The notes under the pieces were generated by a model. It had not been told where the DNA came from and did not search any database. It saw only the letters and a program-made list of their open reading frames with translations. Shown here in pieces: positions 48,899-50,154 of a DNA stretch of 64,000 nt. Position numbers and translations under genes: made by a program. This DNA is from Bacillus sp. DTU_2020_1000418_1_SI_GHA_SEK_038 (lineage in GTDB: Bacteria; Bacillota; Bacilli; Bacillales; Cytobacillaceae). The stretch is from NCBI RefSeq assembly GCF_032341175.1, contig NZ_CP135435.1, positions 2,232,001-2,296,000 on the forward strand, written 5' to 3'. The stretch's first letter is position 1. Each line of letters begins with the position of its first letter.

Positions 48899-49040
48899 CC
48901 ATCCTATATTCTATTACTTACTTATATTTGGTACAACCATTATTATTTCGTAGTCATTAAATTGGATAGTGTTCTCAATTGCGCCGTAATAAAAAATCAA
49001 TTATAATTTACCCATTGCCCTAAAGTACCGAGGTGAGTAA

Positions 49041-49331
49041 ATGTTAGATTTTTTGATGGATGCTTTCAATATTACAGCTGATCATTCCATCTATGTTAGT
49101 TTTATATTAGGGCTCATAATTAAATTTTTATGGGTATGGAATATCCAATATTCATTTCATGATTCATTGTATGATTCAGAACGCTGTAATTCTAATACAA
49201 TAATTCCAATTAATTATTTGAGGGTAAATGTTCAGAGGAACCCATTTTTAAATTGGATTTCAAAATGTGCGAGAAGAATAGACGATCAAAGTGGTGATCC
49301 AGACAGTGATTGCTCCTGCCAACTTAGTTAA
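49041..49331 (+). CDS. mifM: MifM-like translation-arrest leader peptide of yidC2
   Basis: A 96-residue peptide: a short acidic/hydrophobic head, one membrane helix (residues ~18-34, SFILGLIIKFLWVW) and a polar C-terminal stretch with R66, W72-I73, a D-rich run (D81, D82, D86, D88, D90) and CxC at 91-93. B. subtilis MifM is 95 residues, also upstream of yidC2, with an arrest sequence built from Arg, Trp-Ile, Met-Asn and four acidic residues near its end. GAGGTGA lies 4 bases before the ATG. It senses membrane insertion: when YidC activity is low, the ribosome stalls and the downstream hairpin is opened. Identity rests on size, position and spacing of key residues. Confidence 0.83.
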   Translation: MLDFLMDAFNITADHSIYVSFILGLIIKFLWVWNIQYSFHDSLYDSERCNSNTIIPINYLRVNVQRNPFLNWISKCARRIDDQSGDPDSDCSCQLS

Positions 49332-49354
49332 AACGATACTAGGAGGAGTTAATC
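49308..49354 (+). promoter_or_regulatory. Hairpin sequestering the yidC2 ribosome binding site
   Basis: Three helical blocks: GATT (49308-49311) with AATC (49351-49354), CTCCT (49313-49317) with AGGAG (49344-49348) and TTAGT (49324-49328) with ACTAG (49338-49342, one T-G pair). The 3' arm contains the AGGAGGAG Shine-Dalgarno of yidC2. The 5' arm is codons 90-96 of the leader, exactly where a stalled ribosome would melt it. Confidence 0.75.
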
Positions 49355-49356
49355 GT

Positions 49357-50154
49357 ATGAAAAACAAGAAAAGTATTTTTCTTTTTATACTAATATCAGT
49401 CGTAACCTTATTTTTATCAGCATGTTCTACTCAAATTGGCCAAAATAATGATGGAATTTTTCATAAAATTTTTGTCGAACCTTTTGCCTCTCTTATTCAT
49501 GGAACAGCTGCAGTTTTTAATGATAATTATGGGATATCAATTATTATAATTACACTTGGCATTAGGCTTATTCTTATGCCACTTATGTTGAAGCAGTATA
49601 AAAACCAGCGCCTAATGAAAGAAAAAATGGACGCGCTTAAGCCAGAAATGGACGAGATCCAAAAGAAATTGAAAGCAGCAAACGATCCAAAAGAAAAGCA
49701 AATGCTGCAAAAAGAATTAATGGGCCTTTACCAGAAGCATGGTGTGAATCCGCTTAATATGGGATGTCTGCCAATCCTTATTCAAATGCCAATCTTAATG
49801 GGCTTTTATTATGCCATTAGCGGTTCAGAGGAAATTGCTGCCCACTCCTTCTTATGGTTTAATCTTGGGCACGCCGATATTTGGATTACAGCAGCTGCGG
49901 GGATTGTGTACTTCTTTCAATTCAAGGTTTCACAGGTGACAATGCCAATTCAACAGCAGCAGCAAATGAAATTTATGGGGCTCTTATCGCCGATTATGAT
50001 CGTAATGGTCTCTTTAAATGCACCAGCTGCTTTACCACTATATTGGACTGTCGGCGGTATATTCCTAACAATTCAAACAATGATTGGGAAAAAGCTTTAT
50101 CCATCGGAAAAAAAGGATGTCCTACAAACATCAAATCCGATTAGCGGTAAATAG
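49357..50154 (+). CDS. yidC2: Membrane protein insertase YidC2 (Oxa1 family)
   Basis: A 265-residue insertase that places proteins in the membrane, alone or with SecYEG. A lipoprotein signal ends in LFLSACST, followed by five membrane helices with the Oxa1 core: the basic residue in TLGIRLILMPL near residue 70, the charged coiled coil (KEKMDALKPEMDEIQKKLKAAND) and LQKELMGLYQKHGVNPLNMGCLPILIQMPIL. The short Lys-rich C-terminal tail is usual. AGGAGGAG sits 8 bases upstream, inside the leader hairpin. Its expression is expected to depend on the arrest leader. Confidence 0.93.
   Translation: MKNKKSIFLFILISVVTLFLSACSTQIGQNNDGIFHKIFVEPFASLIHGTAAVFNDNYGISIIIITLGIRLILMPLMLKQYKNQRLMKEKMDALKPEMDEIQKKLKAANDPKEKQMLQKELMGLYQKHGVNPLNMGCLPILIQMPILMGFYYAISGSEEIAAHSFLWFNLGHADIWITAAAGIVYFFQFKVSQVTMPIQQQQQMKFMGLLSPIMIVMVSLNAPAALPLYWTVGGIFLTIQTMIGKKLYPSEKKDVLQTSNPISGK

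Follow-up and report, generated by a model that had tools for sequence, protein, structure and literature searches.

The gene at positions 49041-49331 of the window (i.e., the whole stretch of 64,000 nucleotides of Bacillus sp. DNA that was analysed) is, with a probability of roughly 0.84, a member of a family of leaders encoded upstream of yidC2, and likely a MifM-type stalling sensor that would open an mRNA hairpin. According to this reading, low YidC activity would make the ribosome stall at about codons 88-91 of the leader, and the stalled ribosome would open a hairpin predicted to hide the yidC2 Shine-Dalgarno, turning yidC2 on; insertion of the leader helix by YidC would, as we infer, pull on the nascent chain, which would end the stall and let the hairpin close. 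This would be in kind an ordinary mechanism, and the comparison of related loci supports it well. The arrest code appears to depart from that of B. subtilis, partly along the line of the whole family (a basic stretch) and partly in a manner that seems the genus's own (a Pro residue).

The source genome of the window consists of 4.47 Mb in a single contig, and the features of the locus are the following:

48979..49007, forward strand: probable sigma-A promoter of the operon, read from the sequence (TTGCGC, 17 nt, TATAAT)
49030..49036, forward strand: Shine-Dalgarno of the leader, GAGGTGA, from the sequence
49041..49331, forward strand: leader gene of 96 codons plus stop, with an ATG start; putative MifM-type sensor peptide
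49089..49145, forward strand: membrane helix, residues 17-35, from hydropathy
49254..49304, forward strand: predicted arrest block W72-D88 (W+0 to W+16), a nearly gap-free block of the family
49308..49354, forward strand: hairpin predicted by folding to mask the yidC2 Shine-Dalgarno, with the anti-Shine-Dalgarno GCTCCT at 49312-49317
49341..49346, forward strand: Shine-Dalgarno of yidC2, AGGAGG, from the sequence
49357..50154, forward strand: yidC2, the second YidC/Oxa1 insertase (PF02096, E 3.3e-43; TIGR03592, 178 bits, cut-off 84)

The initial annotation had described a 96-codon frame with one membrane helix upstream of yidC2, and this is borne out by the reading frame, by a single hydrophobic segment (Kyte-Doolittle 1.91 over 19 residues) and by the YidC domain matches of the downstream gene. 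Only 25 nt separate the leader from yidC2, and another yidC, presumably the SpoIIIJ counterpart, is encoded elsewhere in the genome (G000:C1:4466185-4466898). By layout, the leader and yidC2 make up a unit of two genes: one neighbouring gene, which encodes an LPG-synthase membrane domain (33.9 bits, with a cut-off of 33.4), is divergent, and a neighbouring crcB pair is convergent. The leader Shine-Dalgarno is also present at 9/9 other loci displayed of group A (the close relatives) and at 13/13 displayed of group B (a C. firmus-like sister clade), and a TATAAT box is similarly placed in the 10/10 group A leaders displayed, the one of the window counted in. The consensus promoter scan did not pick the promoter at 48979..49007, and both the promoter and the terminator scans performed at chance level. 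A CCATTGCCCT-like stretch (49012-49021), located directly 3' of the TATAAT box and close to where the transcript is expected to begin, recurs in several group A relatives. Searches with the leader in Pfam, NCBIfam and PDB gave no match; Rfam had none at the leader and a single one, below the family threshold, on the minus strand after yidC2.

A hairpin whose 5' arm is made of the last leader codons and whose 3' arm hides the yidC2 Shine-Dalgarno had been proposed for this locus, and it holds up in the folding analysis. Its predicted stability is -13.8 kcal/mol (z -2.41, with 5 of 200 shuffles equally stable), and the Shine-Dalgarno, paired with a probability of 0.96, drops to a mean of 0.39 when the leader codons are replaced synonymously, none of 100 replacements reaching the native value. 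When a ribosome is introduced into the folding (taken to shield 15 nt of mRNA, counted from the P codon's first base), the predicted pairing of the Shine-Dalgarno is still 0.96 with codon 86 in the P-site, and it is 0.63, 0.29, 0.03 and 0.02 with codons 88, 89, 90 and 91, respectively, these last four codons being the equivalents of the B. subtilis stall sites.

Any ribosome translating and terminating on the leader might open such a hairpin without arrest, as in plain translational coupling, an explanation that we consider quite unlikely. It would be in agreement with the end of the leader frame falling inside the hairpin and with the geometry of the genus alone (26 loci), where the distance from the leader stop to the yidC2 start is as steady (sd 3.3 nt) as that from the W+16 codon (sd 3.1 nt); the argument that the switch is anchored to the stall codon rests, therefore, on the other genera. 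In 35 genera (81 loci), the distance to the yidC2 start is 55.8 +/- 4.4 nt from the W+16 codon (45-70) and 19.1 +/- 23.1 nt from the leader stop (-67 to +52); outside the genus (55 loci), the standard deviation is 27.2 nt for the stop versus 4.4 nt for W+16, which speaks against coupling, as do eight stops located past the yidC2 start (L083, L090, L092, L097, L098, L100, L103 and L109). In those eight, sensor and target overlap, the leader frame running on for 7-67 nt beyond the yidC2 start as assigned. With W+16 steady and the leader stop wandering, it is the stall site, and not termination, that seems to set the geometry. These distances depend on yidC2 starts assigned by our own Shine-Dalgarno rule, and they leave out L012, due to a duplicated segment, as well as L019, L036, L049, L060, L065, L095 and L096, whose yidC2 start could not be safely placed; before 7 of 88 rows were left out, the standard deviations of both distances were 22.0 and 31.1 nt. 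By the same rule, yidC2 would start at TTG in 28 and at GTG in 6 of the 81 loci, many starts standing behind AGGAGG or AAGGAGG. In L012, the segment comprising the hairpin, the Shine-Dalgarno and the yidC2 start is present twice, 94 nt apart.

The masking predicted for the window extends to most of the family. A Shine-Dalgarno was recognised in 79 loci (two of the 81 being without), and it is masked with a probability >0.6 in 75 of them and of 0.6 or less in the remaining 4, the median pairing being 0.97 in the free state, 0.48 when a ribosome sits at W+16 and 0.66 once the leader codons are replaced synonymously. The native codons beat 95% of the synonymous replacements in 44 of these loci and do not in the other 35. 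The arms appeared misaligned when the hairpin region was aligned over the genus with MAFFT, so pairing was assessed by swapping the arms between genera: with their own partner they reach -16.2 kcal/mol, versus -10.7 when swapped, and 43/81 are in the best 5% (p 2e-7 to 4e-7 with one locus per genus).

The selection acting on the leader codons (Nei-Gojobori pN/pS) was measured in 6 sequences of group A and in 12 of the 15 of group B. In group A, the ratio is 0.29 in the N-terminus, 0.20 in the helix (codons 17-36), 0.63 in the linker, 0.22 in the arrest block (codons 68-88) and 0.65 in the tail; in group B, it is 0.05 in the helix, 0.53 in the linker, 0.14 in the arrest block and 0.06 in the tail. 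There is, hence, purifying selection on the helix and the arrest block, far weaker on the linker. This conservation of the arrest block at the protein level, with a linker much less conserved, is a further argument against coupling. Codons 2-16 of group B (pN/pS 1.01, with pS 0.06 and pN 0.06) give no protein-level signal, since silent sites hardly vary there. A conserved membrane helix encoded just ahead of yidC2, in the same orientation, would also suit a membrane microprotein acting in trans (e.g., on YidC2) and merely sharing the operon; that is highly improbable, given a conserved C-terminal block in register with the mRNA hairpin and arms that fit their own partners.

For the arrest block itself, 89 leaders were aligned with MAFFT, and hardly any gaps fall between the Trp and W+17, the exceptions being single-residue ones in L049, L055 and L060. 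B. subtilis MifM has R69-I70, W73-I74, M80-N81 and D86-E-E-D89, and stalls at codons 89-92, according to PMC4423224 and PMC7897499. Two leaders, L106 and L108, carry RITTWIRKVIRMNSPxNDDED, with exactly the published B. subtilis spacing, and this fixes the register: W73 corresponds to W72 of the window's leader, M80-N81 to R79-I80, and D86-D89 to G85-D86-P87-D88, the segment W72-D88 aligning without gaps to the leaders with that spacing. Compared with RIxxWIxxxxxMNxxxxDEED, the leader of the window has the Trp-Ile and 2 of the 4 acids in register, and it has no Arg-Ile at W-4/W-3, no Met-Asn and two of the four motif acids missing. The presence of W72-I73, of an Asp-rich run and of CSC at 91-93, and the absence of Met-Asn, had been described beforehand and are confirmed in the sequence. 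R66 had also been listed as a kept arrest residue, which fails on register: it is located at W-6, R69 of B. subtilis being at W-4, where the window's leader has P68, and position 66 is Arg in some close relatives and Trp or Phe in others, so that R66 is ruled out as the counterpart of R69. The CxC of the tail, which had been listed with the arrest-like part, does not look like an arrest feature either, since the anti-Shine-Dalgarno is encoded in its codons TGC TCC TGC; nor is it retained as a candidate metal or redox motif, as close relatives show DCS, EFS, RYS or NSS around a common TCC codon.

As RMN is found in only 2 of the 89 leaders, the missing Met-Asn is the norm, and the full B. subtilis motif, with 87 of the leaders lacking RMN, is not a hallmark of the family in this alignment. 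The residue counts that follow leave out L013 and L022. In the genus (29 leaders scored of 31), there is a basic residue at W+7 in 29 and at W+8 in 28, and an acid at W+13, W+14, W+15 and W+16 in 28, 26, 3 and 27, respectively, and W+15, which is the place of E88, is occupied by Pro in 22/29 versus 6/60 elsewhere. Among the 60 leaders outside the genus, the Trp is present in 38, a basic residue at W+6, W+7 and W+8 in 53, 42 and 43, and an acid at W+13 to W+16 in 48, 43, 38 and 42. When only the 62 leaders with the Trp in place are considered, acids appear at W+13, W+14, W+15 and W+16 in 56, 54, 21 and 50, and Pro at W+15 in 27, mostly of this genus. As read from this alignment, the family pattern is a basic stretch followed by acids, and the Pro at the place of E88 is the genus's own. 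The predicted arrest sequence of the window retains the Trp-Ile contact and two of the acids nearest the peptidyl transferase centre, with a basic stretch replacing Arg-Met-Asn at the constriction and Pro replacing Glu88. In the main text of PMC4423224, U2506 is said to be blocked by E87 (here D86, kept); Glu88 (here Pro) is named instead in the opening text of the same paper and in the later PMC6037786. The initial proposal of a changed arrest sequence with a kept geometry stands, then, by comparison, with the reservation that much of the apparent divergence reflects the choice of the textbook species, RMN being restricted to 2/89 leaders and basic residues at W+6 to W+8 being common.

Two departures are specific to the window, namely the Gly at W+13 (an acid in 28/29 of the genus, the window having the sole scored leader without it) and the Ile at W+8 (basic in 28/29). 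Departures at positions so widely kept, together with the frameshifted leader (L022) of the related genome G003, could be indicative of a degenerating leader that has lost its arrest, leaving yidC2 under the hairpin alone. This is very unlikely: the helix and the arrest block are still constrained among the closest relatives, the Ile at W+8 is shared with the relatives P0001 and P0002, and B. subtilis MifM is not much weakened by individual substitutions in its acidic run, as stated in PMC4423224. A functional, MifM-type sensor is also consistent with the general properties of the peptide, whose charge between residues 70 and 100 (-0.6) is within the limit of -0.3 given in a published survey (PMC10987492). 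The distance from the helix end (19-residue hydropathy window) to W+16 is 52 residues in the window's leader (median 53, IQR 52-56, n=89), the helix-to-stall median published for MifM being 54 (PMC10987492). At the profile level, where the MifM side was represented by a profile of L104, L106 and L108, this profile matches that of the genus weakly (28 columns, probability 52%), and the two are bridged by a 7-leader order profile, which matches the former with a probability of 92% and the latter over 94 columns with 99.5%.

On the ribosome side, the uL22 tunnel loop of the window's genome is identical to that of the chains of 3j3v/3j9w, which we take to be the B. subtilis ribosome, and uL4 is identical to those chains over its basic loop. 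The altered arrest contacts are, therefore, not matched by changes in these loops.

The leader is not a peculiarity of the window. Its profile matched eight named loci, from Cytobacillus species and Bacillus sp., and among 36 genomes of the genus, yidC2 is intact in 31 and not in the other 5 (one of these with a 43-aa fragment), a leader being present upstream in all 31 yidC2-bearing genomes (20 loci from the leader search and 11 retrieved via yidC2). The exceptions among these 31 leaders are L022, which is frameshifted, L013, whose end has moved into a longer frame, and L041-L043, strongly diverged. In L022, the frameshift falls after codon 54 and the yidC2 match is full-length, so that this one genome may have lost the sensor. 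The five genomes without intact yidC2 have no convincing leader by profile (best match E 0.004, stop-broken), in a search that might also overlook leaders as diverged as L041-L043. The order was covered by 150 genomes; outside the genus, a leader with a helix and an acidic run was found at 60 of the 69 best-scoring yidC2 loci listed among 149 genomes, which do not constitute a random sample; the loci without one are L052, L084, L087, L088, L091, L093, L101, L102 and L110. The frame upstream in L102 was excluded as a leader, since it encodes an unrelated type of membrane protein of 160 aa. Comparable genes precede yidC2 in dozens of genera, and the comparison of these leaders, proposed at the outset as a check, shows the C-terminal segment and the hairpin kept among relatives.

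The C. firmus-like sister clade comprises 15 of the 31 genus loci, 14 of which group together (support 96/86) when placed in a tree of 33 leader rows, a grouping to which a long-branch warning applies. Six bases after GAGGTGA, these leaders have ATC in 12 and ATT in 1 of the 15, and 13 of them appear to start at these codons (AUC/AUU), there being no canonical start near the N-terminus (L011, L012, L014-L018, L020, L021 and L037-L040); in L013 and L022, an ATG precedes the ATC by two codons. Across the 12 loci with ATC, codons 2-16 are nearly invariant even at silent sites (pS 0.06). Where these leaders have ATC TTT GAA/GAC or ATT TTT GAC, ATG TTT GAA/GAT begins L058, L059, L073, L081, L086 and L111, from other genera, and L035, from the genus. 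A protein search with one clade leader, limited to shared words and similar lengths, gave three predicted proteins: one begins MDIFELL, as the ATG variant does, and the starts of the other two fall within the helix, one of these proteins being perhaps truncated by its short contig.

Other possible starts were considered for the clade. A start further upstream was discarded, as at least one in-frame stop lies within 12 codons upstream in 13/13 loci (three stops in 10 loci, two in two and one in one). An internal canonical start was rejected as well: leaving out L011, the first is at codon 57-60 in 11/12 loci and at codon 17 in L021, so that in those 11 loci, with no ATG, GTG or TTG before codon 57-60, the strongly conserved helix precedes any canonical start. 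An out-of-frame TTG inside the conserved Phe-Glu/Asp codons may still play a role; by eye, its frame meets a stop at the third or fourth codon in 12/13 loci, and none in the printed stretch of L011.

AUU starts are known in infC of Bacillus. The infC of five genomes (that of the window and four of the clade; L125-L129) reads GGAGGTGTCTA[GA]CT ATT AGC AAA GAT ATG, and it appears to start at the ATT, which is better spaced from GGAGG than the ATG; this suggests a possible link to the screening of start codons by IF3. When an AUC start mutation was introduced in a rny-lacZ fusion of B. subtilis, the expression reported was much lower (PMC10303841), so AUC initiation would be weak. The 2024 survey of uORFs took them from GFF annotation (PMC10987492), and it would probably miss leaders with AUC/AUU starts for that reason. 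We lean towards a genus sensor with an arrest code of basic-basic-Lys followed by [DE][DE]P[DE], unlike that of B. subtilis MifM despite the same tunnel loops, in which the AUC/AUU start of the clade, of a class subject to IF3 screening and apparently also used by infC in these genomes, would tie the sensor dosage and the insertase response to IF3.

Among the known systems, the nearest is MifM of B. subtilis (mifM-yidC2/yqjG), with which the leader shares the position upstream of the second yidC on the same strand, the single N-terminal helix, a helix-to-stall distance of about 53 residues, the Trp-Ile and the acids at W+14 and W+16 in register, the (here predicted) hairpin over the yidC2 Shine-Dalgarno and the uL22 loop. 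Unlike MifM, it has no counterparts of R69-I70 and M80-N81, with a basic stretch instead, and it carries Pro at the place of E88 and Gly at that of D86. CliM, from Clostridia, is also encoded upstream of yidC2 and has the same YidC-monitoring role (putative here), an N-terminal helix and an mRNA structure (PMC13183943); it is described there as having no sequence similarity to MifM and not needing acidic residues, and its KYxIW motif is absent, by eye, from the 96-aa leader of the window. The ApcA/RAPP-type arrest peptides, which coincide in being encoded in the uORF of a yidC and in having an N-terminal helix and a C-terminal arrest sequence (predicted here), differ in belonging to an actinobacterial lineage (PMC7897499), and no RAPP/RAGP-like C-terminal motif is seen, by eye, in the 96-aa leader. 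Regarding the start codons, the IF3-repressed GTC start of Streptomyces sigR is a precedent for a near-cognate start as a control point, although it differs in codon and organism and in the lack of a leader peptide (PMC5472188). The matches listed from the open-licence literature contained nothing on this leader, on the control of YidC in Cytobacillus or on non-AUG starts of MifM; the broader motif may nevertheless be visible in a MifM logo that is already in print.

What emerges is that an arrest peptide may alter several of its ribosome contacts while the tunnel loops, the spacing and the mRNA switch stay the same, and the natural series of about 90 leaders could serve for finding which contacts cause stalling. 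That the switch keeps to the stall codon, also in loci whose leader stop is located beyond the yidC2 start, provides a comparative argument for arrest over termination. Furthermore, if the AUC/AUU starts are real, leaders devoid of a canonical start would escape gene callers, a group of sensor genes would probably be missing from annotation-based surveys and arrest peptides would seem patchier than they really are, and the fidelity of initiation may constitute a second input to the control of the insertase.
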